Source: Sphaerisporangium krabiense
GTDB lineage: Bacteria > Actinomycetota > Actinomycetes > Streptosporangiales > Streptosporangiaceae
Direction of reading: 5' to 3'
Length of the DNA stretch: 64,000 nucleotides
Assembly: GCF_014200435.1 (NCBI RefSeq)
Contig: NZ_JACHBR010000001.1
Span: 2,108,001-2,172,000, forward strand
Part shown: one piece after another, positions 16,425 through 36,766 of the stretch
How the letters are laid out: the number at the start of each line of letters is the position of its first letter
How positions within the stretch are numbered: the stretch's first letter is position 1
Made by a program: the position numbers and the translations under genes
The notes under the pieces: generated by a model
Seen by the model: the letters and a program-made list of their open reading frames with translations, nothing else
The model's database searches: none
What the model was told of the DNA's origin: nothing

Positions 16425-16476
16425 CGGCCGCCCCAGGAATTCGTACCGGAACCACACCATTGGAGTTGACTCATTC

Positions 16477-21609: not shown

Positions 21610-22829
21610 TGTGGCGGCGCCTGGCCGCGTTCGACCGCGGCGTGCGGCTGCTCATGCTCAACCAGCTCACGATCAACATCGGCTTCTACATGCTCATGCC
21701 CTACCTCGCCGGTCACCTGTCGGCGGGGCTCGGCATGGCGGCCTGGGCGGTCGCGCTGGTGCTCGGGGTGCGCAACCTGTCCCAGCAGGGCCTGTTCCTG
21801 CTGGGCGGCACGCTGGCCGACCGGCTCGGGTACAAGCCCGTGATCGTCGGCGGCTGCCTGCTGCGCACCGCCGGGTTCGCGCTGCTCGGGCTGTCCGACT
21901 CGCTGCCGGCGCTGCTGGTGGCCTCGGTCGCCACCGGGTTCGCCGGCGCGCTGTTCAACCCCGCGGTGCGCGCCTACCTGGCGCACGACGCCGGGCCGCG
22001 CCGCGTGGAGGCGTTCGCGCTGTTCAACGTGTTCTACCAGGCGGGCATCCTGGCGGGGCCGCTGATCGGGCTGGCGCTGGTGGCGCTGGACTTCCGCCTG
22101 GTCTGCCTCGTGGCGGCCGCGCTGTTCGCCGTGCTCACCGTCGTGCAGATCCGCGCGCTGCCCCGCTGCGCCGTCCCGCCCGCCTCGACCGGCGCCGCCA
22201 CCGGCGTGCTGGCCGCGTGGCGGGGGATGCTGGGCGACCGGCCGTTCGTGCTGTTCTGCGCGGCGATGGCGGGCGCGTACGTGCTGTCCTTCCAGATCTA
22301 CCTGCTGCTGCCGCTGGCGGCGGGCGGCAGCGGGGCCGTGAGCCTGTTGTTCGTGCTGTCGGCGGCGGTCGCCATCGCGGGCCAGACGCGGATCACCGAC
22401 TGGGCGCGCCGCCGCTGGAGCAACTCCGCGGCGATCACCCGCGGGCTGCTGCTCATGGGGGCGGCGTTCCTGCCGCCCGCGCTGTGCGTCACGCTCTGGC
22501 CCCGCTCCACGGCGGCGCAGGTGGCCGCGGTCGTCGTCTGCACGGCCGTGCTGGCGCTCGGGACGACGCTGAGCTACCCGTTCGAGATGGACACCATCCT
22601 GACCCTGTCACGGGGCCGGATGGTGGCCACGCACTACGGCCTCTACAACACGGTCGCGGGCGTCGGCATCGCGGCGGGGAACCTGCTGGTCGGCCTGCTG
22701 ATCGACCTCCGGTCCCCGGCGCTTCCCTGGCTGGCCCTCGCGGCGCTCGGCGGGGCGTGCGCGCTGGCCGTTCATGTGCTGCGCGAGGACCCGCAGGGCG
22801 CGCGCGAACCGGTCCACCTCGTCCCGTGA
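21609..22829 (+). CDS. MFS exporter (MdtH-like)
   Basis: A 406-residue, 12-helix major facilitator. GGTLADRLGYKPVIVGG (about residues 63-79) is motif A; helix 5 carries GPLIGLAL. It belongs with multidrug/small-metabolite exporters of the MdtH type. Translational coupling to the PLP synthase suggests that it exports the product of that enzyme. Its last 222 bases overlap the 3-prime end of the convergent aminotransferase frame on the other strand; helices 11 and 12 and a short tail are within the overlap, so the MFS end looks genuine. Confidence 0.88.
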   Translation: MWRRLAAFDRGVRLLMLNQLTINIGFYMLMPYLAGHLSAGLGMAAWAVALVLGVRNLSQQGLFLLGGTLADRLGYKPVIVGGCLLRTAGFALLGLSDSLPALLVASVATGFAGALFNPAVRAYLAHDAGPRRVEAFALFNVFYQAGILAGPLIGLALVALDFRLVCLVAAALFAVLTVVQIRALPRCAVPPASTGAATGVLAAWRGMLGDRPFVLFCAAMAGAYVLSFQIYLLLPLAAGGSGAVSLLFVLSAAVAIAGQTRITDWARRRWSNSAAITRGLLLMGAAFLPPALCVTLWPRSTAAQVAAVVVCTAVLALGTTLSYPFEMDTILTLSRGRMVATHYGLYNTVAGVGIAAGNLLVGLLIDLRSPALPWLALAALGGACALAVHVLREDPQGAREPVHLVP

Positions 22830-24077
22830 GGTGAACAGGGCGGGCGTGACGCGGACGCAGGCGCCCCCGGCGGTCCCGCCGCGCTGGACGGTGAAGATCC
22901 GGTGCCGGTCGTACAGGTGCGCGACGATGGCCTGGTTGGCGGCGTCGGAGGTGTGCCCGGTGAGCCGGAACGCGGTGATCGCGCCGTACATGGCCGGGTC
23001 CTCGGGGGTGAGGATCTCCACGTTCGGCAGGTCCCGCACCTGGTGGACCCAGCGGTCCCGCAGGAACCGCAGCCGCGCCTGCTTGGCCGCCGCGCCGAGG
23101 GCGTCGTGGAAGTCCAGCGCGGCGGGCACGCCGAGCACGGCGGCCACGTCCAGGGTGCCGCTGTGCACGCGCGAGCGGATGTCGCCGGCGGGATACGTCT
23201 CGTCGGCGAAGGCGCGGTCGATGTCGGCCAGGCGATGGCCACGGATGTGGACGAACCCGGTGCCGAGCGGCGCGCCCATCCACTTGTGCAGCGAGAACCC
23301 GGCGAAGTCCGCCCCGAGGTCGGGGACGGCGAAGTCGAGCTGCCCCCAGGAGTGGGCGGCGTCCACGATCACGTCCACGCCCGACGCCCGCGCCGTCGCC
23401 GCCAGCTCGGCCACCGGCAGCACCAGGCCGGTGCGGTTGTTCATGTGGCTGAGCAGCAGGAGCCGCACGCGGGGGTTGTCGCGCAGCGCCCGGGCGTAGG
23501 CGTCCACGGCCCGGGTGCGGCTCACCGGCTCGGGGATCACGACGCGCACCACGTCGACGCCCCGGCGCTCGCGCAGCCAGTTCATCGCGAACTGCATGCC
23601 GGGGTAGTCGAGGTCGGCGTACATGACCGCGTCGCCGGGGCGCAGCCGCCGGTACCCGGCGATGAGCAGTTGCAGCGCCTCGGTGCCGCCCCGGGTCAGC
23701 GCGATCTCCTCCGGCGGGACCCCGGCCGCGGCGGCGACGCGCCGCCGCACCTGCTCGGCCCGGTCCTTGTAGGCGGTGCGCAGCAGGTGGCTGTTGCGCT
23801 CGTTCACCAGGTCGACGGCGCGGTGGTAGGCGTGCCGCACCGGCTCGGGCATGATCCCGTAGTAGCCGTTCTCCAGGTTCACGAAGTCCCGGGCCACCCG
23901 GTACCGGCGCGCCACGCCACGCCAGAAGCGCTCGTCTCCGGCCAGTCGCTCGGCGCTCACTCCCGGCGGAGCCTCCGGCGGCCCGGCCACGGCCCCCGCC
24001 CACGCCGGGGTCCTCCCCTGCGAGGCGAGCCCCAGCGAGAGGCCCAGCGTCCCCATGTGCCGCCTGGAGAGGCTCAT
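22608..24077 (-). CDS. Tat-exported class V aminotransferase (isopenicillin-N-epimerase-like)
   Basis: A 489-residue fold-type I PLP protein. The N-terminus MSLSRRHMGTLGLSLGLAS...AWA is a twin-arginine signal with an AxA cleavage site near residue 27. The PLP aspartate/histidine pair is VDAAHSWGQ (D239, H242) and the Schiff-base lysine is in FSLHKWMG (K265). The family includes cysteine desulfurases and epimerases; periplasmic members are rarer. The recognisable domain ends about residue 430 (VDRFARALRVLAQHMN); the last 55-60 residues (charged, Gln/Arg-rich) are antisense to the MFS gene and look like read-through. Such long convergent overlap is unusual, so a base error near the end is possible. 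Confidence 0.85.
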   Translation of the reverse strand: MSLSRRHMGTLGLSLGLASQGRTPAWAGAVAGPPEAPPGVSAERLAGDERFWRGVARRYRVARDFVNLENGYYGIMPEPVRHAYHRAVDLVNERNSHLLRTAYKDRAEQVRRRVAAAAGVPPEEIALTRGGTEALQLLIAGYRRLRPGDAVMYADLDYPGMQFAMNWLRERRGVDVVRVVIPEPVSRTRAVDAYARALRDNPRVRLLLLSHMNNRTGLVLPVAELAATARASGVDVIVDAAHSWGQLDFAVPDLGADFAGFSLHKWMGAPLGTGFVHIRGHRLADIDRAFADETYPAGDIRSRVHSGTLDVAAVLGVPAALDFHDALGAAAKQARLRFLRDRWVHQVRDLPNVEILTPEDPAMYGAITAFRLTGHTSDAANQAIVAHLYDRHRIFTVQRGGTAGGACVRVTPALFTSRDEVDRFARALRVLAQHMNGQRARPAERREGQPGKRRGPEVDQQADQQVPRRDADARDRVVEAVVRGHHPAP

Positions 24078-24226
24078 CGGTCGCCGCCGCGGGTGTCCGG
24101 AACGGTGAGCTGCGTGTTCGTCACATGATCACCATTACCTGCCGACGCGGCCGCTCAATCTTTTCCTGGCACGCGAGCCGGTTTCCTGGGGCGGTGGCAG
24201 TGAGGGCGGCCGCCTCTTGTCATAGA

Positions 24227-24241
24227 CTGAATGGGATTCAG
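24227..24241. promoter_or_regulatory. TetR operator site A (autoregulatory)
   Basis: CTGAATGGGATTCAG, arms CTGAAT/ATTCAG. It partly overlaps a good -10 element (TAGACT, 24223-24228) and lies 46 bases before the tetR ATG. Sister sites are at 27463, 27661 and 30081. Confidence 0.75.
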
Positions 24242-24286
24242 ACATGTGGGGTGTCAGTGGACGTGTTAGACGTGGTGGGGGATCGA

Positions 24287-25042
24287 ATGGCCAAGCCGGG
24301 CACGGCGCCGAGAAAGCAGGGGAGATCGTCCCGAGAGGGCGACGACACCGAGGCGGTCATCGATCTCGACGATCCGCGGTTGCAGACCGAGGCCGCGCGC
24401 GGCCTGGTCAAGGCGGCGCGCGAGTTGTTCGTCAAAAAGGGCTTCTCCGCGACGAGCGTGAGCGACATCACCGAGCGCGCGGGCATGAGCGTGGGTTCGC
24501 TGTATTACCACTACGGCAGCAAGACCAACATTTACGTGGCGATCTGGCTGCAGTACCAGCGCAGCCAGGAGGCCCGCGCCCGCGAGACCGTCATCGCGGT
24601 GCGCGCCGCGGGGGTCACCAACGGGCTGCGGCTGTTCCTGGCCGGGACCCGCGCCTACCTGCTGGGAGCCTGGGAGCACCGCGACGTGGTGCGGCTGGCC
24701 GCCGACGGCGACACCCCGCCCGGGTTCGGGCTGCGCACCCGGCGGATCAACCAGGAGTGGTTCCGGCAGAACTCCGCGCTGCTGCGCGACAGCGCCAACA
24801 CCGCCGGGCAGGACGATCCGCTGGCCATCCGGGCGATCGTCGCGATCGTCACCGACGCCATGGGCGGGATCTGCCGGGAAGTGGCCGCCTGCGCCACGCG
24901 TGAGGAGGCCGAGGAACTGGTCGCCCGCGCCATCGACGTCTTCGCCCGGCTGGCGAATTCCCCCATGGACCAGCAATTCCGGCCCGACGCCCGGCCGGCC
25001 ACGGCGTTCGGCGTCACCGTCCGCGACGACGGCGGCTGGTGA
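24287..25042 (+). CDS. TetR-family regulator of the acyl-CoA catabolic regulon (FadR-like)
   Basis: A 251-residue repressor. Residues about 35-85 form the TetR helix-turn-helix: KAARELFVKKGFSATSVSDI, then ERAGMSVGSLYYHYGSKTNIY. The C-terminal two-thirds is a ligand-binding domain, expected to hold an acyl-CoA or similar effector. ATG 24287 is preceded by GGGGGA; the frame is open upstream without a site. A palindrome that overlaps its own -10 box, and near copies before etfD, the acyl-CoA dehydrogenase pair and the Liv transporter operon, indicate that it represses the whole set and itself (inference). The site resembles the operator of Bacillus FadR (TGAATGA...TCATTCA). Confidence 0.88.
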   Translation: MAKPGTAPRKQGRSSREGDDTEAVIDLDDPRLQTEAARGLVKAARELFVKKGFSATSVSDITERAGMSVGSLYYHYGSKTNIYVAIWLQYQRSQEARARETVIAVRAAGVTNGLRLFLAGTRAYLLGAWEHRDVVRLAADGDTPPGFGLRTRRINQEWFRQNSALLRDSANTAGQDDPLAIRAIVAIVTDAMGGICREVAACATREEAEELVARAIDVFARLANSPMDQQFRPDARPATAFGVTVRDDGGW

Positions 25043-25046
25043 CGGC

Positions 25047-25080
25047 GAATCGGCCGCGCCGGAGCCGGCGCGGCCGATTC
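25047..25080. terminator. Hairpin terminator of tetR
   Basis: A perfect 16-bp inverted repeat, GAATCGGCCGCGCCGG and CCGGCGCGGCCGATTC with a 2-base loop, begins four bases after the tetR stop codon. It also faces the 3-prime end of the convergent etfD transcript. Confidence 0.85.
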
Positions 25081-25182
25081 ATCGGGAAATCTTTGATCGC
25101 CGAGTAAATGCCCCGAGTCAGGCGGCGGGCGGATCCTCGGATGAGGAAAGCCATCGGAAACCCGCCCGGACCCGGCCGGCGG

Positions 25183-25278
25183 CCGGAACGCCGTCCGGCC
25201 CCGGTGCGGTGATCCGAGGGCGGACGGCGCCCGGAACGCCGTCCGGACCCGGGCCGGTGATCCGGGGGCGGCTCACCG
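25183..25278. repeat. Two tandem 48-bp repeats
   Basis: Two head-to-tail copies with exact 48-bp spacing, each beginning CCGGAACGCCGTCCGG (25183 and 25231) and sharing GGTGATCCG and GGGCGG; the second copy runs into the end of etfD. The CCGGAACGCCGTCCGG start is itself partly self-complementary, so each copy may form a hairpin. Confidence 0.7.
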
Positions 25279-27420
25279 TCCCGCGGGGCCGCTCGCCACG
25301 GGTTCGCCCTTGACGGACTTGATGAGCAGCTGGGCGACGTCGACGACTTCCAGGGTTTCCTTGGCCTGGCCGGTGTTCTTCTTCTCGTTGATCGCGTCCC
25401 CCAGCATCACCAGGCAGAACGGGCACGCGGTGGACACGGTGTCGGGATCGGTGGTCAGCGCCTCATCCACCCGCTCGGTGTTGATCCGCTTACCGATCCG
25501 CTCCTCCATCCACATCCGCGCCCCACCCGCGCCACAACAGAACCCCCGCTCCTTACAGCGGTGCATCTCCTGGGTCCGCACCCCCGGCACCGTCGCCATG
25601 ATGTCGCGCGGCTGGGCGTACACCTTGTTGTGCCGCCCCAGGAAACACGGATCGTGATAAGTGATCTTCTCCTCGATCGGCGTCACCGGCGTCAGCTTGC
25701 CCGCCTCCACCAGGTGCGCCAGCAACTGCGTGTGGTGTACCACCTCGAAGTGACCGCCGAGCTGCGGGTACTCATTGGCCAGGGTGTTGAAGCAGTGCGG
25801 GCAGGTCGCCACGATCTTCCTCACCCCCGCCTCGTTCAACGTCTCGATGTTCTGCCGGGCCAGCATGTCGAACACGAACTCCATCCCAAGCCGGCGAGCC
25901 GGATCCCCGGTACACGCCTCCATCGGCCCCAGCACCGCGAACCTCACCCCCGCGATGTGCAGCAGCTCGGCCACGGCCTTGGTGGTCTTCCTGGCCCGGT
26001 CCTCCAGCGCCCCGGCGCAGCCCACCCAGAACAGGTACTCCACGTCCTCGGGCATCTTGTCGTCGACCATCGTGACCTCGATGGGGTCGACCTCGCGGGA
26101 GGCCAGCTCCTCGATCCACTCGGCGCGCTTGCCCTCCGGCAGGCCCCACGGATTGCCCTTGTTCTCCAGGTTCTTCAGCATCACCCCCGCCTCGGAGGGG
26201 AAGCTCGACTCGATCATGACCTGGTAGCGGCGCATGTCGATGATGTGATCGATGTGCTCGATGTCCACCGGGCACTGCTCCACACACGCCCCGCAGTTGG
26301 TACACGACCACAACACATCCGGATGGATCACACCCTCCTCGCCGACCAGCGGCTTCTCCAGCAGGGCGAGCACGTCCTGCGGATAGGAGTCCTTCTGCGC
26401 GTCGCCCGCCAGCAGGTACGGGGCCACCTGGAACGCGTGGTCGCGCTGGTCCAGGATCAGCATCTTCGGCGACAGCGGCTTGCCGGTGTTCCACGCCGGG
26501 CACTGCGACTGGCACCGGCCGCACTCCGTGCAGGTGTAGAAGTCGAGGAACCCCTTCCACGTGGTGTCCTCGATCTTGCCGCGCCCGAACACGTCCACCT
26601 CGGGGTCGGCTTCCTCGAAGTCGAGCACCTTGCCGTTGCTGCGCATCTCCGGCACCGCCCCCAGGCCGTCCGGACGGCGGGAGAACAGCACGTTCAGCGG
26701 CGCGGTGAAGATGTGCAGGTGCTTGGAGTTCACCACGATCACCAGGAACACCAGCATCACGCCGATGTGCAGGAGGAGGCCGATCTCCTCCAGGAGCGTG
26801 CTCGTGGGCAGGATCCTCGCGGTGAGCTCGGAGGCGAACGCGCCCGACCTGTAGGGGAAGTTCCCGGTGTTGATCGACGCGCCGCGGAACAGGAACAGCG
26901 TCCAGATCACGTTGAAGATCATGAAGAGCACGAGCCAGGCGCCGCCGAGATGTGAGCCGGAGAACCGGGAGCCACGGCCGAGTCTCTTGGGCGAGTTCTT
27001 GACGCGGATCGCGGCGAAGGCGACCAGTCCGGCGAGCGCGGCGACGGCGATGAAGTCCTGGAGGAACCCGAGCACCGGCCAGGTCCCGATGAGCGGGATG
27101 TGGAAGTCGGGCTCGCCGGTGATCGCCCCCTGGACGAGCGCGCCGTACGCCTCCAGGTAGACGGTGGCGAGGATGAAGAACGCCCACATCACGAAGAAGT
27201 GCGCGGTGCCGGACGGCGTCCACTTCAGCAGCTTCTTCTGGCCGAAGACCTCCACCACCTGGGCTTTGATCTCCGCCCCGACGTTCTCCCTGGCGTAGCG
27301 CAGGCGTTCGGGGGCGGGCTGGCCGCTGGTGGCGAGCCTGGAGAGGAACGCCACGCGGCGGCCCGCCAGGGCGAGCGCGACGCCGGTCGCGACGAGCCCG
27401 ATGATCGCAACCCAGAGCAC
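25273..27420 (-). CDS. etfD: ETF:menaquinone oxidoreductase-type Fe-S membrane protein (EtfD/FadF-like)
   Basis: A 715-residue protein. Residues 1-250 hold about five or six membrane helices (NarI-like cytochrome part). Then come two 4Fe-4S motifs, CTECGRCQSQCP (297-308) and CTNCGACVEQCP (373-384), and two CCG domains with FWVGCAG, ATCPHCFNTL and GFCCGAGGARMW typical of heterodisulfide reductase-like proteins. The mycobacterial homologue EtfD takes electrons from EtfBA and passes them to menaquinone during fatty acid oxidation. EtfB and EtfA are encoded at 43.0-44.8 kb in the same presumed regulon, which agrees. A TetR-type operator (27463) sits in its leader. Confidence 0.92.
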   Translation of the reverse strand: MLWVAIIGLVATGVALALAGRRVAFLSRLATSGQPAPERLRYARENVGAEIKAQVVEVFGQKKLLKWTPSGTAHFFVMWAFFILATVYLEAYGALVQGAITGEPDFHIPLIGTWPVLGFLQDFIAVAALAGLVAFAAIRVKNSPKRLGRGSRFSGSHLGGAWLVLFMIFNVIWTLFLFRGASINTGNFPYRSGAFASELTARILPTSTLLEEIGLLLHIGVMLVFLVIVVNSKHLHIFTAPLNVLFSRRPDGLGAVPEMRSNGKVLDFEEADPEVDVFGRGKIEDTTWKGFLDFYTCTECGRCQSQCPAWNTGKPLSPKMLILDQRDHAFQVAPYLLAGDAQKDSYPQDVLALLEKPLVGEEGVIHPDVLWSCTNCGACVEQCPVDIEHIDHIIDMRRYQVMIESSFPSEAGVMLKNLENKGNPWGLPEGKRAEWIEELASREVDPIEVTMVDDKMPEDVEYLFWVGCAGALEDRARKTTKAVAELLHIAGVRFAVLGPMEACTGDPARRLGMEFVFDMLARQNIETLNEAGVRKIVATCPHCFNTLANEYPQLGGHFEVVHHTQLLAHLVEAGKLTPVTPIEEKITYHDPCFLGRHNKVYAQPRDIMATVPGVRTQEMHRCKERGFCCGAGGARMWMEERIGKRINTERVDEALTTDPDTVSTACPFCLVMLGDAINEKKNTGQAKETLEVVDVAQLLIKSVKGEPVASGPAGR

Positions 27421-27462
27421 GGGTCCTCCTCAGCGAGGCGACATGGCTGGTGAAACCGCCAT

Positions 27463-27477
27463 CTGAATGTCATTCAT
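27463..27477. promoter_or_regulatory. TetR operator site B (etfD)
   Basis: CTGAATGTCATTCAT; the inner 13 bases TGAATG-T-CATTCA form a perfect palindrome. It lies 43 bases upstream of the etfD start codon. Confidence 0.75.
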
Positions 27478-27543
27478 CGCCGCATGGAATCCGCGCGGAG
27501 CGGGTACCGCGTCACGCTCGGGGCTTCCGATCGGCATTGAAGA

Positions 27544-27573
27544 AGCTAAACACGCTGCTGAAGGGGTGGTCAA
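27544..27573 (-). promoter_or_regulatory. Candidate etfD promoter
   Basis: On the minus strand TTGACC (27573-27568), 18 bases, then TTAGCT (27549-27544), a reasonable housekeeping-type promoter. It would start transcription about 60 bases before operator B. Confidence 0.4.
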
Positions 27574-27581
27574 CAGTCCCA

Positions 27582-27596
27582 CCGAACGGGATTCAA
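27582..27596. promoter_or_regulatory. Degenerate TetR operator half-match (site D)
   Basis: CCGAACGGGATTCAA matches site A (CTGAATGGGATTCAG) at 12 of 15 positions, and lies between the two divergent promoters. Weaker than the other sites; may be an auxiliary site or chance. Confidence 0.35.
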
Positions 27597-27625
27597 GTTG
27601 CGGGAATGTAACGCACATGTGTCCG

Positions 27626-27655
27626 TTGACGCCCTTCTCGGCACCGTGCTAGACA
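27626..27655 (+). promoter_or_regulatory. Candidate promoter of the acyl-CoA dehydrogenase operon
   Basis: TTGACG (27626-27631), 18 bases, TAGACA (27650-27655). The predicted start point (about 27662) falls inside operator C, so bound repressor would block initiation. Confidence 0.6.
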
Positions 27656-27660
27656 TTGCC

Positions 27661-27675
27661 CTGAATGACATTCAG
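27661..27675. promoter_or_regulatory. TetR operator site C (acyl-CoA dehydrogenase operon)
   Basis: CTGAATGACATTCAG, a perfect 15-bp palindrome with one central base, immediately downstream of a -10 element. It is the best member of the operator set. Confidence 0.85.
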
Positions 27676-27718
27676 TCATGTTCCGCCCCTGGTCGCAGGG
27701 GGCATGGGAGGTGCTGTA

Positions 27719-28768
27719 GTGCTCGCTCTACTCAGTGACGAGCAGCAAATGCTCAAAGACGTGGCCGCCCAGATCGCCGGCTCCGCCGGCCCGTCGAACC
27801 CCAGTGACCTGAACACCCTGGACCGCGCCGCGGCCTGGCGGTCGCTCGCGCAGGCCGGCCTGCTGGCGCTGCGGACCCGGGACGACGACGGGCGCCCGGT
27901 CGGTTCGGGCGTGGAGGTCGCCGTGGTGGCCGAGGGGCTGGGCGCGGGCCTGGTACCGGTGCCCTACCTCGGGTCGGCCGTGCTCGCCACGGAGCTGCTC
28001 GCCCTGGCCGGCGCGCACGACGAGGCCGAGGCCCTGTCCGAAGGGGACACGAGGACCACGGTGCTGCTCGACCGCGACCTGTCCGCCCTGGCCGTGCTGC
28101 CGGGCGACCAGACGGTGTACGCCTGGGACGCCGACGGCGCCGCGGACGCGCTGGCGCTGACCGCCGGACCCGACGGGCACCAGGTGGTGCGGGTATCGCT
28201 GGACACCGGGTTCGCCCCCGCGGCCGGCTCCGACCTCACCCGCACGCTGCTGCGCTCCGACGGCCCGATCGACGGGGCCCGGCTCACCCCGGTGGGCAGC
28301 CCCCTCTCCGCCGAGGCGCTGCTGCGCTGGGAGGCGCTCGCGCTGACGGTGATCAGCGCGGACATCGTCGGCGTCATGCGCGCCGCCGTGGCCAGGGCCG
28401 TCGCCTACACCAAGGAGCGCGTCCAGTACGGCGTGCTGATCGGCTCCTTCCAGGCGGTGCAGCACCTGTGCGCCGAGGCGTACGTGCAGGCGGAGGCGTC
28501 GGCGAGCGCGACCAACTACGCGGCCTGGGCCGTGGACGAGCTGGACGTGGCGGAGGCGCTGCTGGCGGCACGCACCGCGAAGACGCAGGCCGCCCTCGTG
28601 GCGCGCGAGGTGACCGAGACCGTCATGCAGGTGTTCGGCGGCATCGGCCAGACCTACGAGCACATCGCGCACGTCCACACGCGGCGTGCCCTGACCGACC
28701 GCCAGGTCCTCGGAGACGAGGGCGTCCAACTGGTGCGCATCGCCGACGTCCGGCTGACGGGAGAGTGA
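27719..28768 (+). CDS. Acyl-CoA dehydrogenase, short subunit (FadE28-type)
   Basis: A 349-residue acyl-CoA dehydrogenase family protein. Its C-terminal half has ERVQYGVLIGSFQAVQHLCAE and QVFGGIGQTYEHIAHVHTRRA, hallmarks of the flavin-binding helical domain, while the N-terminal and middle domains are divergent. Together with the next gene it forms a short-plus-long pair like mycobacterial heteromeric FadE28-FadE29 enzymes, in which two subunits share one FAD site. I chose GTG 27719 because GGGAGG is seven bases upstream; the frame is open to 27665 but would include the operator. Cytoplasmic; introduces the 2,3-double bond in an acyl-CoA. Confidence 0.9.
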   Translation: MLALLSDEQQMLKDVAAQIAGSAGPSNPSDLNTLDRAAAWRSLAQAGLLALRTRDDDGRPVGSGVEVAVVAEGLGAGLVPVPYLGSAVLATELLALAGAHDEAEALSEGDTRTTVLLDRDLSALAVLPGDQTVYAWDADGAADALALTAGPDGHQVVRVSLDTGFAPAAGSDLTRTLLRSDGPIDGARLTPVGSPLSAEALLRWEALALTVISADIVGVMRAAVARAVAYTKERVQYGVLIGSFQAVQHLCAEAYVQAEASASATNYAAWAVDELDVAEALLAARTAKTQAALVAREVTETVMQVFGGIGQTYEHIAHVHTRRALTDRQVLGDEGVQLVRIADVRLTGE

Positions 28769-28770
28769 CC

Positions 28771-29898
28771 ATGGACTACCGCGACACCCCCGAGGAGGCG
28801 GAGTTCCGCGCGACCCTGCGCGAGTGGCTGACCGCCACCATCCCCGCGGGCTGGGACAAGATCGAGGACGAGGAGGAGTCGGTCAGGCTCCGCAAGGACT
28901 GGCACCGCACCCTCTACCGCGCCGGGTACGTCGGGATGAGCTGGCCGGTGGAGTACGGCGGGCGCGGCCTGAGCCCGGTGTACGACGCGATACTCAACGA
29001 GGAGTCGGGCAACCTGGGCGCCCCTCCGCTGCCGTCCGTCGGCTACATCGGCCGTGCCATCTTCATGTACGCCTCCGAGGAGCAGAAGAGGCGGTTCCTG
29101 CCGCCGCTGCTGTCCGGCGAGGCGAGCTGGTGCCAGGGCTTCAGCGAGCCGGAGGCCGGGTCCGACCTCGCCTCGCTGCGCACGGCGGCGCGGCTCGACG
29201 GGGACCACTACGTGGTCAACGGGCAGAAGATGTGGACGAGCGGCGGCCAGTACGCCGACTGGTGCCTGCTGCTGGCCAGGACCGACCCCGACGTCCCCAA
29301 GCACAAGGGCATCTCGGCCTTCCTGGTCTCGATGACCGAGCCGGGGGTCACGGTACGGCCCATCGTGATCGCCAGCGGCGAGGCCGAGACCGCCGAGGTG
29401 TTCTGGGACGACGTGCGGATCCCGGTGGAGCAGCGGCTCGGCGCCCCCGGCGAGGGCTGGCGGATCGCGATGACCACGGTCGCCTACGAGCGGGGCCCGG
29501 CCGACATCGGGTTCATCGCCAACTACCGGCGCACGCTGCGCAAGGTCGAGGGTCTCGCGGCCGAGCGCGGCCTGCTGGAGAAGGAGGAGGTCCGCAAGGC
29601 CCTGGCCCGCGCGTACGTGCGGGGCGAGGTGCTGCGTCTCAACTGCATGGAACAGCTCTCGATGCGGGTCTCCGGGCGCGCCCCGGGGCCTGAGGGCTCG
29701 GTCGCGAAGCTGCTGTGGGCCGACGCCGAGCAGTCCCTGCAGCACCTGGCGATGGACATCCTCGGCGCCGACGAGATGACCGGCGTCGCCGCCGGCTGGC
29801 TCAGCTCCTACTTCACCTCCCGCCCCGTCAGCGTCTACGGCGGGTCGGCGCAGATCCAGAAGAACATCATCGCGCGCATGCTCGACATGCCGCGCTGA
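28771..29898 (+). CDS. Acyl-CoA dehydrogenase, long subunit (FadE29-type)
   Basis: A 375-residue acyl-CoA dehydrogenase. It shows WPVEYGGRGLSPVYDAILNEE, the substrate/FAD loop WCQGFSEPEAGSDLASLRT, then VNGQKMWTSGGQYADWC, and the terminal YGGSAQIQKNIIARMLDMPR typical of the family. It starts two bases after the preceding stop, so the two proteins are probably made in equal amounts and form an alpha2-beta2 enzyme. Electrons would pass to EtfBA and then EtfD, all in this regulon. Substrate: probably a branched or cyclic acyl-CoA rather than a straight fatty acid (inference from the igr-like gene set). Confidence 0.92.
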   Translation: MDYRDTPEEAEFRATLREWLTATIPAGWDKIEDEEESVRLRKDWHRTLYRAGYVGMSWPVEYGGRGLSPVYDAILNEESGNLGAPPLPSVGYIGRAIFMYASEEQKRRFLPPLLSGEASWCQGFSEPEAGSDLASLRTAARLDGDHYVVNGQKMWTSGGQYADWCLLLARTDPDVPKHKGISAFLVSMTEPGVTVRPIVIASGEAETAEVFWDDVRIPVEQRLGAPGEGWRIAMTTVAYERGPADIGFIANYRRTLRKVEGLAAERGLLEKEEVRKALARAYVRGEVLRLNCMEQLSMRVSGRAPGPEGSVAKLLWADAEQSLQHLAMDILGADEMTGVAAGWLSSYFTSRPVSVYGGSAQIQKNIIARMLDMPR

Positions 29899-30080
29899 TC
29901 CGCGGGACCCCGGCCGCGCCCGGCCCCTTCCCCCGGTCCGGGTGACGGCGCCCCGGCCCAGGGTGCCGGGCCCACTCCGTGATCTTCATGTGGTCGGCGG
30001 CGCGCACGCCGCGCCGTACGCGATCACCTTTCCCGACCATCCCCCAGGGCTCGCGCGGCCCGTCGCGCGCGCCCCTCCTC

Positions 30081-30095
30081 CTGAACACCATTCAG
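30081..30095. promoter_or_regulatory. TetR operator site E (Liv/CoA operon)
   Basis: CTGAACACCATTCAG, perfect five-base arms CTGAA/TTCAG and 13 of 15 matches to site C. It is 28 bases before the start of the binding-protein gene that heads the long operon. Confidence 0.7.
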
Positions 30096-30122: not shown

Positions 30123-31364
30123 ATGAGATCACGCCACATCCGTCTTTCCGCGATATCGCTCAGCGCACTGCTCGCGTTCTCCGTGGCCGCGTGCGGCGGC
30201 GAGGGGAGCGACGGCGCGTCCGGTGACAGCGCCGACAAGCCCTTCGTCGTCTACTTCACCGGGGACTACTCCGGTGCGATCTCCACGAACAACGCGAGCC
30301 TGGACGCGGGCATCAAGATCGCGGCGGAGGAGCTGAACGCCGCCGGCGGCATCAACGGCCGCAAGGTCGTGGTCGAGACGGCCAACGACCAGAACGACCC
30401 GACCAAGGCGGTCAGCCTCCTCCAGCAGCGGCTCTCCTCGGGATCCAAGCCCGACCTGGTCTACCCGGGCGGCTCCAGCGCCGTCTCCCTCTCGCTGCTG
30501 CCGATCCTGAGCAGGCAGAAGATCCTCTCGATCGGCGGCACGGTCAGCACGCTGCTGAACGACCCGAAGAAGTTCCCCTACCACTTCGGGGTCTCCTCGC
30601 CCGGCAAGGACTACGCGCCCGCGCTGATCCGGACGGCGAAGGAGAAGGGCTACAAGAAGATCGGCATGCTCTACTCCAACGACGCCACCGGCCAGAGCTC
30701 GGCCGAGATCTACAAGGCGGCCGTCCAGGGCGCGGGCATGGAGTTCGTCGAGGCCCGCTACGAGGCCACGGCGCTGGACATGACCTCGCAGCTCAACCAG
30801 CTCCGCGCGCAGAACCCCGACGCGCTGGTGCTCAACGGGTACGGCACCGCGGCGCTGTACGTGATGCGCAGCCGGGCGCAGATCGGCTGGGACATCCCGT
30901 CCTTCTGCGACCAGCTCGCCTCGGGCTTCCCGTACATGAAGAACCTGAAGGCCGACCAGCTCAAGAACGTGTTCGTGGTCGTCTCCAGCGCGACGCTGGA
31001 GGACAGCGAGCGTCACCCGAACCTGGGCGCCTTCGTCGAGCAGATCAAGAAGAGCCCGGCGGCCGGCGGCATCGGCAACACCGGCTGGGGGCTCTACGCC
31101 ACCGGGCACGACGCCCTCGCCGTCGTCGCCTACGCCGCGCAGCAGGCCAAGACCACCGAGTCCGACAAGGTCAAGGCCACCCTGGAGAACCTGCCGCAGC
31201 CCTCGGGCGCGCCGCTCTGGTACGCCGCGGGACCCGCCGGGCAGTACGTGCAGTTCAAGTACTCGCCGGCGAACCACTTCCCGACCACGAGCGAGGAGAC
31301 CTTCCAGTACGTCCCGCCGGGCGTCTACAACGGCGAGGGCTTCTACGCGCCCGAGAAGGCGTGA
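30123..31364 (+). CDS. Branched-chain amino acid-type (LivJ-like) ABC substrate-binding lipoprotein
   Basis: A 413-residue periplasmic-binding-protein type 1 lipoprotein. The signal ends in a lipobox SVAACGGEG (cysteine about residue 24). The mature part has YFTGDYSGAISTNNASLDAGI, AAGGINGRKVVVETANDQNDP and AVSLLQQR, the standard LivJ layout. In catabolic clusters such proteins commonly bind aromatic or aliphatic carboxylates instead of amino acids. GAGGAGG precedes ATG. It heads a long same-strand run of genes to 45967 with gaps of at most 14 bases and many overlaps, so one operon is likely. Confidence 0.92.
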   Translation: MRSRHIRLSAISLSALLAFSVAACGGEGSDGASGDSADKPFVVYFTGDYSGAISTNNASLDAGIKIAAEELNAAGGINGRKVVVETANDQNDPTKAVSLLQQRLSSGSKPDLVYPGGSSAVSLSLLPILSRQKILSIGGTVSTLLNDPKKFPYHFGVSSPGKDYAPALIRTAKEKGYKKIGMLYSNDATGQSSAEIYKAAVQGAGMEFVEARYEATALDMTSQLNQLRAQNPDALVLNGYGTAALYVMRSRAQIGWDIPSFCDQLASGFPYMKNLKADQLKNVFVVVSSATLEDSERHPNLGAFVEQIKKSPAAGGIGNTGWGLYATGHDALAVVAYAAQQAKTTESDKVKATLENLPQPSGAPLWYAAGPAGQYVQFKYSPANHFPTTSEETFQYVPPGVYNGEGFYAPEKA

Positions 31365-31371
31365 GGTCGCG

Positions 31372-32238
31372 ATGACGACCGTATGGGCCGGACTGGCGAC
31401 GGGCGCCATCTACTCGCTGATCGCGATCGGGTACAACATCGTGCTCCTCGCCTCGGGGACGTTCAACTTCGCGCACGCCCAGCTGCTGATGGTCGGCACG
31501 TTCCTGGCCTACACCGGGGCGGTCACGCTGGGGCTCCCCGTGCTGCCGACCGTGCTGCTCGCCATGATCGGCGTGGCGGCCATCGCGCTCATCGAGGAGC
31601 GGATCGCCATCCGTCCGCTCCTCGGCCGCAGCGACAGCCACGGCACGCTGATCACCACGGTCGGCGCCGCCACCATCCTGGACGGGCTGGCCGCGGTCAT
31701 CTGGGGCAGGGAGCCGCTGACCGTGCCGTCGGTCCTGCCCGACCGGCCGCTCGACCTGCTCGGCGGGACCGTCCGGCCGGTGGACCTGGCGCTGATCGGC
31801 TTCACGCTCGTCGTCGGCGTGGGACTGCACCTGTGGTCCCGGCACACGCTCACCGGCCTCGCCTCCCTGGCCTCCGCGGAGGACAGGGACGCGGCCTCGG
31901 CGCGCGGCATCAACGTGCGGCTCCTCGGCGTGGGCGCCTTCGCCCTGGCCGGGGCGGTCGCCGGAGTGTTCGGCCTGCTGGTCGGGGCGCGCACGTACGC
32001 CGTCTTCGACCTCGGGCACGACCTGGCGCTGTTCGGGTTCGTGGCCATCGCGATCGGAGGGTCGGGCAGCCAGCTCGGCGGCCTGATCGGCGGTTTCGCC
32101 ACCGGGCTCGTGTACGCGTTCGCCGCCAGGTACATCGGCGCGGCCTACCCGCAGATCGTGGTGTTCGCGGCGTTCCTGCTGATCCTGTTCCTGCGACCGC
32201 GCGGCCTGTTCGGCGCCGCGCTCGAACGGCGGGTGTAG
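31372..32238 (+). CDS. LivH-type ABC permease
   Basis: A 288-residue permease with about eight hydrophobic segments. It contains LATGAIYSLIAIGYNIVLLASG near the N-terminus, ERIAIRPLLGRSDSHGTLITT, the conserved AIAIGGSGSQLGGLIGGF and the closing RPRGLFG. It would form half of the import channel with the permease half of the next, fused protein. It follows the binding-protein gene by seven bases. Confidence 0.92.
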   Translation: MTTVWAGLATGAIYSLIAIGYNIVLLASGTFNFAHAQLLMVGTFLAYTGAVTLGLPVLPTVLLAMIGVAAIALIEERIAIRPLLGRSDSHGTLITTVGAATILDGLAAVIWGREPLTVPSVLPDRPLDLLGGTVRPVDLALIGFTLVVGVGLHLWSRHTLTGLASLASAEDRDAASARGINVRLLGVGAFALAGAVAGVFGLLVGARTYAVFDLGHDLALFGFVAIAIGGSGSQLGGLIGGFATGLVYAFAARYIGAAYPQIVVFAAFLLILFLRPRGLFGAALERRV

Positions 32239-32241
32239 CCC

Positions 32242-34116
32242 ATGAACGCCCTCCTCCACCGGTACCGGCCGCTGGGCGTCGTGCTCCTGCTGGCCCTGCT
32301 GCTCATCGCCCCCACCGCGGGCCTGCTCAACGGCTACTGGTCGCGCACGGTGATGCTGATCGCGATCCTGAGCCTGCTGGTCAGCGGCCTGAACGTCGTC
32401 CTCGGCTACGCCGGCGAGCTGGCCATGGGACAGGTCGCGCTCTACGCCGTGGGCGCCTACGTCGCCGGCTACCTCGGCGTCGAGCTCGGCATGACGAACG
32501 TGCTGTTCTCGCTGCTGGGGGCCACCCTCGCCGCGGTCGTGGTCGGTCTCATCACCGGCATACCCGGGCTGCGCCTCGGCGGCTGGTCGCTGGCGATGGT
32601 GACGTTCTTCCTGGTCACGCTGGTGCCGAACCTGGTCGACGTCTTCTCCGGGTTCACCGGCGGCACGCTCGGCATGGCCACCGCCGTCCCCACCCTGTTC
32701 GGCATGGAGATCGTCGGCGACCGGCTCTACTGGCTGATCATCCTGGTCGTGGCCGCCTGGTTCACGGTCGCCCGCAACCTGCTGCTCTCGCGGCACGGCA
32801 ACATGTTCCTGGTCCTGCGGCAGAGCCCGATCCTGGCCTCGGTGCTCGGCGTCTCGGTGTACCGGCTGAAGCTGCTGGTGTACGTCGTCGGCGCGATCCC
32901 CGCGGCGCTGGCCGGCGCGCTGTTCTCGATGCTGGACGGGTTCATCGCCCCCGACACCTTCACCTTCGCGCTCGCGCTCAGCGTGCTCGCCGCGTCCGTC
33001 GTCGGCGGCGCGACCTCGGTGTACGGCGCGATCGCCGGCGCGGCGGTGATGCAGCTCGGGCAGCAGACCTTCACCCAGTTCCAGACCTGGCAGCTCGTCA
33101 TCTACGGCGCGTTCCTGCTGATCGCGGGCATCGCGTTCAACCGCGGGCTCGCCGGCCTCGCCCAGGACGGCCTGGCCGCCGTCCGCCGCAGGGGCTGGCT
33201 GCCGACCCCCGCCCCGGCCACCGTCGCCGCCGAACCGGCCGGCGAGGTCGAGACACGGCTCGAACCGCTGCACGGCGTGACGCTGCGCAGCGAGGGGCTC
33301 GGCAAGTCCTTCGGCGGCAACCGGGCGCTCGACGACGTCACCATCGAGGCCAGGCCCGGCGAGGTCACCGCGCTCATCGGCCCGAACGGCTCGGGCAAGA
33401 CCACCATGCTCAACCTCATCTGCGGCCTCTACAAGCCGTCCGCCGGGCGGCTGCTGCTGGGCGAGGAGGAGATCGGCGGCCACCCGACGTACCGCATCGC
33501 GCGGCACGGCGTGGCCCGCACCTTCCAGACCCCGCTGATCCCGGCGCACATGACGACGCTCGCGTTCGTCGCGACCGGCAGGTACGTGAGCCACCGCGTC
33601 GGCATCCTGCCCGCGATCCTGCGGCTCCCGGGCTTCCGCAAGGGGTACGCGACCGACGACGCGCGGGCCATGGCGCTGCTGCGGCTGGTCGGCATCGCCG
33701 ACGTCGCCCACCAGCAGGTCGACTCGCTGGCCCTCGGCACCCGGCGGCTGGTCGAGGTGGCCCGCTGCCTCGCCTCCGGCGCCCGCGTGTTCCTGTTCGA
33801 CGAGGTCGGCTCCGGCCTCGACGAGAGCGACCTCGAAGTGCTCGAACGGGCCATCGGGATGATCCGCGAGGCCGGCGGGACGGTGATCCTCGTCGAGCAC
33901 AACTTCCCGCTCGTGCTCAAGCTGTCCGACCGGATCCACGTGCTCAGCCAGGGGCGGCTGCTCGCCTCCGGCACCCCGGCGCAGATCCAGAACGACCGCA
34001 GGGTGCTCGCCGAGTACACCGGCGCGACCGACGGCGGGGACGCCCCCGACGCCTTCGACTCGGTGGCGGACCTCCAGGCCGCCGACGGGCCCGCCACGCC
34101 GAAGGGAGCCAAGTGA
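32242..34116 (+). CDS. LivM-LivG fusion: ABC permease joined to ATP-binding domain
   Basis: A 624-residue protein that joins two usually separate Liv components. Residues 1 to about 310 are a LivM permease (LSLLVSGLNVVLGYAGELAMGQ, then VYGAIAGAAVMQLGQQ); a linker follows; from about 345 a LivG-type ATPase begins. Walker A is GPNGSGKTT (about 378), Walker B is VFLFDEVGSGLD (about 515) and the switch is LVEHNFP. The signature is LALGTRRLVEVARCL, with alanine where LSxG is usual, and the D-loop reads GSGLDESD; both still look functional. The acidic tail after about 590 is probably disordered. Its stop overlaps the LivF start. Confidence 0.92.
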   Translation: MNALLHRYRPLGVVLLLALLLIAPTAGLLNGYWSRTVMLIAILSLLVSGLNVVLGYAGELAMGQVALYAVGAYVAGYLGVELGMTNVLFSLLGATLAAVVVGLITGIPGLRLGGWSLAMVTFFLVTLVPNLVDVFSGFTGGTLGMATAVPTLFGMEIVGDRLYWLIILVVAAWFTVARNLLLSRHGNMFLVLRQSPILASVLGVSVYRLKLLVYVVGAIPAALAGALFSMLDGFIAPDTFTFALALSVLAASVVGGATSVYGAIAGAAVMQLGQQTFTQFQTWQLVIYGAFLLIAGIAFNRGLAGLAQDGLAAVRRRGWLPTPAPATVAAEPAGEVETRLEPLHGVTLRSEGLGKSFGGNRALDDVTIEARPGEVTALIGPNGSGKTTMLNLICGLYKPSAGRLLLGEEEIGGHPTYRIARHGVARTFQTPLIPAHMTTLAFVATGRYVSHRVGILPAILRLPGFRKGYATDDARAMALLRLVGIADVAHQQVDSLALGTRRLVEVARCLASGARVFLFDEVGSGLDESDLEVLERAIGMIREAGGTVILVEHNFPLVLKLSDRIHVLSQGRLLASGTPAQIQNDRRVLAEYTGATDGGDAPDAFDSVADLQAADGPATPKGAK

Positions 34117-34865
34117 TGTTGTCCGTCGCCGGCGTCACCGGTGGATACGGTGACCTGCGGGTCCTGTGGGACGTGGACGTGGCCGTGCGGCCCGGCCGGA
34201 TCACCGTCGTGCTCGGGCGCAACGGAGCGGGGAAGACCTCGCTGCTGTCCGCCATCGCCGGGCTGCTGCCCACCGTGAGCCAGGGCCGCGTCGAGCTCGA
34301 CGGGCGGGACCTCAGCGGCGCCCCCGCCCACCGGCGGGTGCGGGCCGGTCTCGCCCTCGTGCAGGAGAACAAGCGGGTCTTCCGCGCCCGCAGCGTCGAG
34401 GAGAACCTGCTCCTCGGCGGATACAGCCTCGGCGGCCTCGGGCTGCGCGGAGGGGCGCGCGGGACGGCGCTGGAGAAGGCCTACGAACGTTTTCCCGTCC
34501 TGCGTCAGCGGCGGCGCGAACCGGCGGGCAGCCTGTCCGGCGGCCAGCAGCAGATGCTGGCCATCGGCCAGGCCCTGATGCCGGGACCGAAGCTGCTGAT
34601 GCTCGACGAACCCTCCGCGGGCCTCGCGCCCGCCATCGTCAACGAGGTCCTGGAGATGGTCGCGGCGCTGCGCGACGAGGGCCTGTCCATCCTGCTGGTC
34701 GAGCAGCGGATCGAGCACGCGCTGGCGATCGCCGACGACGTCGCGGTCATGGAGAACGGGCGCATCATCACCACCGGCCCGAAGTCCGCCTTCGACGACG
34801 GCGCGGTGATCCGCGAGGTCTACCTCGGCCGGTCGGGCGAACGCCTGACCACCGGCAACAATTGA
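34116..34865 (+). CDS. LivF-type ABC ATP-binding protein
   Basis: A 249-residue ABC ATPase. Walker A LGRNGAGKTSLL (about residue 32), signature GSLSGGQQQMLAIGQAL, Walker B LLMLDEPSAGLAP, and switch LVEQRIEHAL are all canonical, unlike the partner domain in the LivMG fusion. The transporter would therefore have one standard and one slightly degenerate nucleotide site. Start ATG overlaps the fusion gene stop (TGATG). Confidence 0.92.
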   Translation: MLSVAGVTGGYGDLRVLWDVDVAVRPGRITVVLGRNGAGKTSLLSAIAGLLPTVSQGRVELDGRDLSGAPAHRRVRAGLALVQENKRVFRARSVEENLLLGGYSLGGLGLRGGARGTALEKAYERFPVLRQRRREPAGSLSGGQQQMLAIGQALMPGPKLLMLDEPSAGLAPAIVNEVLEMVAALRDEGLSILLVEQRIEHALAIADDVAVMENGRIITTGPKSAFDDGAVIREVYLGRSGERLTTGNN

Positions 34866-34877
34866 GAGGAACGCACC

Positions 34878-35624
34878 ATGTTGCTGAAGGACAAGGTCGC
34901 CGTGGTCACCGGCGCCGCGCAGGGCATCGGCCGGTCGGTCGCCGAGCTGTACGCCCGCGAGGGCGCCCGGGTGGCGGTGGTCGACGTCAAGACGGACGAC
35001 GCGGAGAAGGTGGCCGCGGGCATCCGCGAGGCGGGCGGCCAGGCGATGGCCGTGACCTGCGACGTGTCGGACCGGGCCGCGGTGGACGAGGCGGCCGCGG
35101 CCGTGAAGGCGGCCTACGGGCCGATCGACGTCCTGGTGAACAACGCGGGCGTCACGCGCCCGGCGATGCTGCACAAGATGACCCAGGAGGAGTGGGACGT
35201 CGTCATGGGCGTCCACCTGCACGGCTCCTTCTACTGGCTGCAGGCCGTGGTACACGACATGATCGAGCGGCAGCGCGGGTGGATCATCTTCAGCTCCTCC
35301 TCGACCGCGCAGAACGGCTCGATCGGCCAGATCAACTACGCGGCCGCCAAGTCGGGGATGCTCGGCATGGTCCGCACGGCCGCCCGCGAGCTCGGCCGGT
35401 ACAACATCCTGGTCAACGCGGTCGCGCCCGCGGCGGCCACCGAGATGACGCTCAAGATCCGCACGGACCCGCGCTTCGCCGACGGCGTCAAGCGGCTGCC
35501 GCTGCGCCGCCACGCCGAGCCCGAGGAGATCGCGCCGACCTTCCTGTACCTGGCCTCCGACGCGGCCAGCTACGTCACCGGCCAGGTCATCTCGGTGGAC
35601 GGCGGCGGAATGATGGTGCGTTGA
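34878..35624 (+). CDS. Short-chain dehydrogenase/reductase (FabG-like)
   Basis: A 248-residue classical SDR. The nucleotide motif is TGAAQGIG (11-18), NNAG is at 88-91, and the catalytic set is Ser141, Tyr154 and Lys158 (SSSSTAQ..., INYAAAKSG). VDVKTD after the second strand, with an aspartate, favours NAD over NADP. In the pathway it may oxidise a 3-hydroxyacyl-CoA or another alcohol intermediate. GAGAGGAAC precedes ATG. Confidence 0.9.
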   Translation: MLLKDKVAVVTGAAQGIGRSVAELYAREGARVAVVDVKTDDAEKVAAGIREAGGQAMAVTCDVSDRAAVDEAAAAVKAAYGPIDVLVNNAGVTRPAMLHKMTQEEWDVVMGVHLHGSFYWLQAVVHDMIERQRGWIIFSSSSTAQNGSIGQINYAAAKSGMLGMVRTAARELGRYNILVNAVAPAAATEMTLKIRTDPRFADGVKRLPLRRHAEPEEIAPTFLYLASDAASYVTGQVISVDGGGMMVR

Positions 35625-36766
35625 CGGTGACGCCGAGTGGCCCGCTGAGCGGCGTGCGGATCGTCACGTTCGCGCCGCTCTACCAGGGGCCGTACGCGAC
35701 GACGCTGCTCGCCGACCTCGGCGCGGACGTGGTCACGGTCGAGCGGCCGGGCACCGGCGACGGCGCCCGCCTCCAGGGGGTCATGTTCGCCGCGCTCAAC
35801 CGGGGCAAGCGCTCGGTGGCCCTGAACCTCAAGGCCCCCGAGGACCAGGAGACCGCCCGCCGGCTCGCCGGCACGGCCGACGTCCTGGTCGAGGCGTTCC
35901 GCCCCGGCACCATGGAACGGTACGGCCTCGGGTACCCGCGCCTGAGCGCCGGCCATCCCGGCCTGGTCTACGTGTCGCTCTCCGGCTTCGGCCAGGACGG
36001 GCCGTACCGGGACCGGGCCGGGCACGACCTGATGTACCAGGCGGCGGCGGGCCTGCTCGACGGGCTGGTGGACCGGCCCGGAGCGGTCCATCCGCCGCCC
36101 GAGCTGGAGGCGGGCGCGATCGTCGGCGCCCTCTACGCGGCGCTCGGCGCGCTGGCCGGCCTGGTCGGCAGGGCCGCCACCGGCCGCGGCACCCACGTCG
36201 ACCTGTCCACCCACGAGGCCCTGCTGTCGGTGATGTCCCTGCGGCTGGAACCGGTGCTCAACGGCTCCGGCGCCCCGGCCCCCGAGCCCGGCCCCGAGCC
36301 CGGATACGGGCTCTACCGCTGCGCGGACCGGCGGCTGATCGCGCTCGGCATCGGCTTCGAGGACCATTTCTGGGCCCTGCTGTGCGAGGCGACCGGCCTC
36401 ACCGCGTACGCCGGGCTCACCCAGGCCGAGCGTGCGGCGCAGGGCGGCACGCTCGCCGGGCTGCTGTCCGAGGCGCTGTCCACCCGGACCTACGCCCACT
36501 GGCAGGAGCTCTTCGACCGGATCGGGGTGCCCGCCGGCCCGGTCCACCGGCTGCGCGAGATCCCCGACGACCCCCACGTGCGCGCCCGGCAGGCGATCCG
36601 CGCGCTGAACGGCGGCGACGGCCGCCGCTACGTGCGCCAGCCGCTGCGGTTCAGCGGATACGGCGCGCCCGACCCCGCCCCGGCCCCCGGCCTGGGCGAG
36701 CACACCGCTTCGCTCCTTCGCGAGCTGGACGCATCACCGCACCATCAGGAGGTACCCGAGCCATGA
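35621..36766 (+). CDS. CaiB/BaiF-family (class III) CoA transferase
   Basis: A 381-residue class III CoA transferase. The N-terminal GVRIVTFAPLYQGPYATTLLADLGADVV binds CoA, and the catalytic aspartate is expected in RAGHDLMYQAAAG (about residue 140). FSGYG and HTASLLREL close the protein as in the family. It would move CoA to the imported acid or between pathway intermediates. The start is uncertain: a TTG at 35621 overlaps the SDR stop (TTGA), and a GTG follows at 35627. Its own stop overlaps the next ATG. Confidence 0.88.
   Translation: MTVTPSGPLSGVRIVTFAPLYQGPYATTLLADLGADVVTVERPGTGDGARLQGVMFAALNRGKRSVALNLKAPEDQETARRLAGTADVLVEAFRPGTMERYGLGYPRLSAGHPGLVYVSLSGFGQDGPYRDRAGHDLMYQAAAGLLDGLVDRPGAVHPPPELEAGAIVGALYAALGALAGLVGRAATGRGTHVDLSTHEALLSVMSLRLEPVLNGSGAPAPEPGPEPGYGLYRCADRRLIALGIGFEDHFWALLCEATGLTAYAGLTQAERAAQGGTLAGLLSEALSTRTYAHWQELFDRIGVPAGPVHRLREIPDDPHVRARQAIRALNGGDGRRYVRQPLRFSGYGAPDPAPAPGLGEHTASLLRELDASPHHQEVPEP

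Follow-up and report, generated by a model that had tools for sequence, protein, structure and literature searches.

A putative four-operator regulon of one TetR-type regulator around an acyl-CoA catabolic cluster of Sphaerisporangium krabiense

Within the 64-kb stretch of the Sphaerisporangium krabiense genome analysed here (the window; contig NZ_JACHBR010000001.1, positions 2,108,001 to 2,172,000), a small tetR gene is found among genes for acyl-coenzyme A (CoA) dehydrogenases, a Liv-type importer, an electron-transfer flavoprotein (ETF) and its membrane quinone oxidoreductase, EtfD. The locus raises the question of whether this single regulator governs them all. A sequence-only reading had pointed to four near-identical 15-bp palindromes in front of four transcription units, and each was found where it had been placed: operator A (CTGAATGGGATTCAG, 24227–24241) in the tetR promoter, operator B (CTGAATGTCATTCAT, 27463–27477) upstream of etfD, operator C (CTGAATGACATTCAG, 27661–27675) at the predicted transcription start of the dehydrogenase gene acd1, and operator D (CTGAACACCATTCAG, 30081–30095), which begins 42 bp before the start of the gene for the Liv-type binding protein. 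It is highly probable that one autoregulated TetR repressor acts through these four operators on about 20 genes, covering uptake, CoA activation, β-oxidation, ETF and EtfD, and that a CoA-thioester releases it; in this model we infer the binding and the repression as well as the ligand and the substrate.

The palindromes are rare. As had been claimed, the window holds no further copy: at up to three mismatches the four palindromes are its sole matches, against a mean of 0.69 in shuffled sequences, of which 1 in 100 reached four. Across the whole genome (8.53 Mb), CTGAATGNCATTCAG occurs with at most one mismatch at 4 places, 3 of them inside the window, and with at most two mismatches at 15 places, 4 inside; at up to three mismatches there are 109 places versus 45 for the reversed control. 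The string TGAATNNNATTCA is present five times, three of them in the window, and is absent from the control. Abundant random copies, which the sequence-only reading had named as evidence against itself, were not seen. The 11 other places with two mismatches or fewer comprise 7 within called genes and 4 intergenic ones; site D is itself called genic by the gene caller, which chose an upstream start at 29979. An intergenic place at G000:C1:1035286–1035300 (L061:3287; G000 denotes the window genome), CTGAATGGGATTCAA, follows an enoyl-CoA hydratase gene and precedes an IclR-type regulator gene by 210 bp; it is a possible candidate for a fifth site. The same locus is present in the sister genome G285 (L142), a conservation that says little because the whole surrounding stretch is 96% identical.

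The window sites were also recovered with a matrix to which they had not contributed, built from 33 sites of eight relatives (G087, G195, G159, G198, G003, G063, G202 and G331) with the window and its sister G285 excluded. The four sites ranked as the top four of the window, with 30.3, 27.8, 25.8 and 23.5 bits, the best score in 40 random 64-kb sequences being 14.2 bits. Such random sequences gave on average 0.6 matches at a threshold of 8 bits and 0.3 at 10 bits. A weaker fifth operator, proposed at 27582, did not hold up: it ranked fifth with 9.5 bits, a chance-level score, and is unconserved in the alignment.

Conservation was examined among the 341 genomes of the family. A search with acd1 found matches in 25 of them: 10 at 73–100% identity (that of the window included), 4 at 53–56% and 11 at 43–51%. 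The orthologous cluster is present in 10 genomes, counting that of the window; named holders of the TetR orthologue are Microtetraspora malaysiensis, M. fusca, Microbispora amethystogenes, Acrocarpospora corrugata, A. pleiomorpha, Thermocatellispora tengchongensis (two copies) and Streptosporangium saharense. All ten close clusters have a site at all four positions, that is, at tetR, at B, at acd1 and at the binding-protein gene. These 40 sites comprise 11 perfect ones, 11 with one mismatch, 14 with two and 4 with three (D in G202; A, B and C in G331), so that 36 of the 40 have two mismatches or fewer. The left half of site D reads CTGAACA in 7 of the 10 clusters, with C at position 6 in 9, letters that may set a weaker affinity. 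In G331 (T. tengchongensis; L122, L079 and L076), the cluster is flanked by two tetR copies, each with its own palindrome. An order-wide search of 200 genomes, that of the window included, found TetR orthologues (75–85% identity) in 6 of the 199 others, and a site adjoins all seven of these close TetR genes, the window's among them. Around 23 distant TetR loci (43–48% identity, about 1.5 kb on each side), no site was detected at up to two mismatches and one at three.

A more remote comparison is provided by four outgroup clusters (G289, G317, G321 and G315), the products of which are 53–56% (acd1) and 51–55% (tetR) related to those of the window. There, acd1-acd2-tetR diverge from a transporter/CoA operon, with a palindrome CTGAACNNGGTTCAG behind the −10 box of acd1 and another, GTGAAYGTGRTTCAG, behind that of the transporter side (both boxes read by eye). 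A related regulator thus keeps related putative operators in like placement. The operators could nevertheless be owned by another regulator, of which the adjacent TetR protein would merely be one target. The tetR gene does carry a site, as a target would, and the place near the IclR-type regulator gene recurs in the little-diverged G285 locus. On the other hand, tetR with its own site accompanies all ten cluster-holding genomes (on a separate contig in five), the four outgroup clusters have a related tetR beside related palindromes, and a 15-bp palindrome with odd spacing suits a TetR dimer. Ownership by another regulator is therefore considered very unlikely.

The preferred candidate, the product of tetR (24287–25042, forward strand, 251 residues, start set by orthologue alignment), has an N-terminal helix-turn-helix (HTH) domain recognized by PF00440 with 60.3 bits (cut-off 24; E = 1.6e-16). 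A palindromic putative operator at its own promoter, as expected of the family, is provided by site A, and each of the ten clusters has an equivalent. A sequence search against the PDB gave 58 matches, the best stretches of which lie within residues 30–140 of 251 and cover mostly the HTH; no curated NCBIfam cut-off was reached. An AlphaFold2 model from seven orthologues was poor (predicted local distance difference test, pLDDT, 57). With a 31-sequence alignment (A2), which included 17 of the 23 distant loci (those with no stop in the match) and 3 of the 4 outgroup TetR genes, the model was all-helical, as is usual in this family with its variable C-terminal domain, and had a pLDDT of 80.1. A fold search with it returned 120 PDB matches at E ≤ 0.001, the best being PfmR of Thermus thermophilus (PDB 3vpr), which is only 25% identical. 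The tetR tree is weakly supported and partly at odds with that of the structural genes. A class V aminotransferase-like protein is encoded at 22608–24077; its best curated-model scores, for SufS and PvdN, are all below cut-off. Among the stretches compared, only those of the window and G285 have this gene beside tetR.

How the operators are placed relative to the promoters bears on the direction of control. A −10-like box read from sequence on the forward strand, TAGACT (24223–24228), overlaps site A by 2 bp and is kept in all 10 aligned tetR upstream rows (nine genomes). The acd1 promoter, also predicted on the forward strand, reads TTGACG-N18-TAGACA (27626–27655, with boxes at 27626–27631 and 27650–27655); its boxes are largely conserved in 8 aligned clusters, with TTTAAT in G063. 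Site C starts 5 bases past TAGACA. The alignments thus agree with the earlier proposal that site C lies at the predicted transcription start, that site A overlaps the −10 box of tetR and that this geometry fits repression. A TetR-family dimer would bind the four 15-bp operators and, at A and C, block RNA polymerase, because the operator there overlaps or closely follows the −10 box. Site D, the beginning of which is 41–49 bp from the start codon in every one of the ten clusters, would lie in the leader just ahead of the ribosome site.

Activation of these units by the TetR protein, instead of repression, was also considered. An imperfect inverted repeat, GTTGCGGGAATGTAACG (27597–27613, forward strand), lies upstream of the acd1 −35 box; the element and its fixed 29-bp offset to that box are found in 10 of 10 clusters, and it was not found in the four outgroup intergenic regions. 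This separate conserved element makes activation by something likely. The overlap of A with one −10 box and the close position of C behind another, where a bound protein blocks polymerase, speak against the TetR protein being the activator, which is extremely unlikely. The element is possibly the site of a second regulator. GlnR was considered as its owner on account of the GTTRCG motif; GC in place of the AC of the GlnR consensus, seen in 9 of 10 clusters, counts against it.

Repression at etfD appears to take another form. A probable etfD promoter, TTGACC-N17-TTTAGC (27545–27573, reverse strand; N16 in G003), forms a conserved block, and both boxes are present in all 8 clusters in which etfD adjoins B, or is deduced to do so, and in neither of the 2 others. 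With the start predicted from this promoter, site B would be about 60–75 bp inside the etfD transcript, and for this reason it is proposed to act as a roadblock or jointly with C. In the second option, B and C would cooperate, with dimers bound on each bringing the intervening promoter or promoters into a DNA loop. The B–C spacing is 198 bp in the window and G285, 199 bp in G198 and G003, 200 bp in G087, G159 and G063, and 201 bp in G195 and G331, so that nine of the ten clusters fall within 198–201 bp; the remaining one, G202, has 188 bp. At 10.5 bp per turn, all these spacings are within 0.14 turn of a whole number, while the distance from acd2 to D varies from 48 to 183 bp. The B-side intervals of G195 and G331, two clusters that retain B without an adjoining etfD, are equal in length at an identity of 0.293, no better than shuffled sequences (null mean 0.27, 95% point 0.33).

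Other observations weaken this case. The spacings of relatives are not independent, and with 10.4 or 10.6 bp per turn the phases cluster just as closely, but off the whole turn. The identity of the intervals of G159 and G195 is just above the shuffled 95% point (0.339 versus 0.331), and those of G159 and G087 give a good ungapped alignment (0.57), so that the length on the B side may partly have been simply inherited. The outgroup palindromes, measured in L117, L119, L120 and L121, are separated by 142 bp, which is not a whole number of turns. Taken together, the spacing in the close clusters gives a hint that the distance is constrained, for instance by looping, yet joint action of B and C is doubtful. 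The specific arrangement in which B and C are helically phased (19 turns; 18 in one lineage) and TetR dimers loop over the acd promoter, plus the etfD promoter where etfD adjoins, B being kept without etfD since the loop needs it, is rather unlikely. If it were true, a single TetR loop would shut off the dehydrogenases together with their quinone-linked electron acceptor.

The etfD gene (25273–27420, reverse strand) encodes a membrane iron-sulfur ETF:quinone oxidoreductase of 715 residues with CCG and Fer4 domains. Its product matches PDB 9ojn, 'Iron-sulfur-binding reductase', with E = 1.5e-260 in two stretches, the best covering residues 356–706; an iron-sulfur protein with CCG domains matching a solved protein is what is expected of an actinobacterial EtfD. 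The window genome has three etfD copies that are about 90% identical. No operator was found at up to three mismatches within the 20-kb stretches (L082 and L083) around the other two, at G000:C1:2786125–2788278 and 5993554–5995668. A complete or partial etfD lies beside tetR or B in the window, G285, G087, G159, G063, G202 and G003, and its last bases do so at a contig end in G198. A search at E ≤ 1e-50 found no etfD in G198 and G003, which is attributed to broken repeats. The two G159 copies are nearly identical and may have been homogenised, or merged in the assembly. The fetched stretches of the four outgroup clusters contain no etfD; each outgroup genome has one etfD-like gene elsewhere (75–77%).

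Site B is kept in G195, the only cluster of the ten without etfD in the stretch covered, and in G331, where a tetR copy, not etfD, adjoins B. Phylogenetic analysis of 11 concatenated proteins (3755 columns, half of them filled for G285 and G321) unites the eight clusters that have etfD between tetR and B in a single clade with support of 96/99, G195 and G331 branching off before it; a four-gene tree supports this clade at 85. Topology tests rejected a grouping of G195 with G063 and G202 (p-AU, approximately unbiased test, 0.0006) and did not reject one with G331 (0.12). The reading that etfD was captured once and late, next to a pre-existing operator B and after the split of G331, is not upheld, because G331 has the last 33–39 residues of an etfD at a contig end, beside its second tetR and convergent with it as in the other clusters. 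No site at up to three mismatches was found in the stretches fetched around two further etfD pieces of this genome (C40 and C24).

The remaining putative targets are all on the forward strand. The first gene behind C, acd1 (27719–28768; PF00441), encodes an IpdE2/PimD-like acyl-CoA dehydrogenase subunit below curated cut-offs, and acd2 (28771–29898) a second subunit, the best PDB match of which is 4x28, followed by 6wy8. Behind D come the Liv-type substrate-binding protein (30123–31364; PF13458; start taken from alignment in preference to that of the gene caller) and, within 31372–34865, a Liv permease (31372–32238), a fused permease-ATPase (32242–34116) and an ATPase (34116–34865). These are followed by a short-chain dehydrogenase/reductase (SDR) and a family III CoA-transferase (34878–36766), an ATP-grasp NDP-forming acyl-CoA synthetase (36763–38901), two MaoC-like hydratase subunits with a DUF35/ChsH2-OB protein (38894–40286), an Ltp2-like thiolase-fold protein (40283–41449), two enoyl-CoA hydratase family proteins (41446–43028), etfB and etfA (43033–44776) and, last in the operon, a major facilitator superfamily (MFS) transporter (44777–45967). 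If 30123–45967 is one operon (16 genes, with gaps of at most about 50 bp), 20 genes are counted across the four units; on that proviso, the view that one small regulator would control some 20 genes, from import through to the reduction of quinone, is supported. In one relative (L052; G087:C7, flipped 6378–17185), a second acd/Liv/CoA-transferase/SDR set, 26–39% identical to that of the window, lies about 4.5 kb past the MFS gene.

The thiolase-fold protein is probably, by prediction, an Ltp2-like retro-aldolase. Alignments examined by eye show no cysteine at the usual nucleophile position, and a DUF35 gene is its neighbour, as in the Ltp2 type. Its nearest PDB entry is 4u4e, followed by 9myr and 6ok1; those of the DUF35 protein are 6htj, 9myr and 6ok1. 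Subfamily models were passed by the thiolase-fold protein (PRK06158) and the SDR (PRK12826.1-2), and no equivalog cut-off was reached in the rows shown. From established family knowledge, the pathway looks like side-chain β-oxidation with a probable retro-aldol last step. That the predicted gene content makes up one coherent pathway is counted for a common regulon.

Could this be a FadR-type fatty-acid regulon with a long-chain acyl-CoA as ligand? Bacillus FadR belongs to the TetR family and has β-oxidation and ETF genes among its targets, with the half-site TGAATG. That half-site appears to be shared with the operators described here; acyl-CoA dehydrogenases, ETF and EtfD are among the targets, and an HTH-level match, 8sv6, bears the title 'Fatty acid metabolism regulator protein' in the sequence search (DarR in the fold search). 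The likeness to the Bacillus operator that had been proposed is unsupported as put forward, however, since the half-site appears to be all that is alike and the half-site spacing appears to differ, and none of the solved TetR proteins matches the regulator over its full length. Its similarity to such proteins is partial and mostly confined to the HTH, it reaches no NCBIfam cut-off, and none of the 50 fold matches listed is titled FadR. The operon combines a Liv-type importer with Ltp2/DUF35-like proteins, and neither an AMP-dependent ligase nor a 3-hydroxyacyl-CoA dehydrogenase family appears in the Pfam results for it. A FadR orthologue is not supported by the tests made, and a fatty-acid regulon of this type is quite improbable.

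A putative four-site regulon of the adjacent TetR-type regulator is preferred, supported by the rarity of the sites, their conservation in 10 of 10 clusters and the held-out matrix. What is observed directly is the sites themselves, how they are conserved and placed, and how rare they are across the genome. The bound repressor would shut off tetR itself, etfD, acd1-acd2 and the 16-gene uptake/CoA/β-oxidation operon that ends in etfBA and the transporter, until released by a pathway intermediate, most likely an acyl-CoA formed by the synthetase or the CoA-transferase. Several points weigh against this model. The proposed ligand is guessed from the genes present, and the fold search with the regulator model gave no clue to it; site B is predicted to be downstream of the best etfD promoter candidate, not on it. 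Sites A, B and C of G331 have three mismatches each. The orthologue sites were found partly through the consensus of the window itself, although gene order determined the positions at which they were accepted. Finally, tetR and acd1 are on a single contig in 5 of the 10 clusters (window, G285, G087, G195 and G331), contigs breaking in or at etfD in the other 5, where the linkage is deduced.

Comparable systems are known. FadR of Sulfolobus acidocaldarius is a TetR-family repressor with four genomic sites in a 30-kb β-oxidation cluster of 23 open reading frames, released by acyl-CoA (PMC6449355). The window regulon would resemble it in the TetR repressor, in one large contiguous cluster with a set of four sites and in the proposed release by an acyl-CoA. 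It would differ in that the Sulfolobus system is archaeal, with a 16-bp motif and lipase and fatty-acid genes, whereas the window has a Liv importer, Ltp2/DUF35-like proteins and EtfD. The operator of T. thermophilus FadR is a 15-bp pseudopalindrome, TTRNACYNRGTNYAA, of the same length as here and with other letters (PMC5597230). EtfD of Mycobacterium tuberculosis (Rv0338c) is described as the membrane iron-sulfur protein that works with EtfBA in serving acyl-CoA dehydrogenases (PMC8593149). The window etfD product resembles this kind of protein; as a difference, one of three copies in the window genome stands beside a putative operator of one catabolic cluster.

A further comparison is KstR2 (PDB 4w1u), an actinobacterial TetR repressor of an acyl-CoA pathway; it matches the window regulator in the HTH only, and its operator differs. 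A literature search with the operator strings tried found no paper containing them and none on this regulon. The kind of control is thus familiar, while this particular regulon appears to be undescribed within the literature searched.

The analysis provides a testable assignment for one of the very many uncharacterised actinomycete TetR proteins, and it would tie a specific EtfD copy to one catabolic pathway. If the B–C pair is functional, it would add a case of looping to a family usually described as direct blockers of polymerase. The predicted operator set and promoters are defined, ready for finding the inducing acid.

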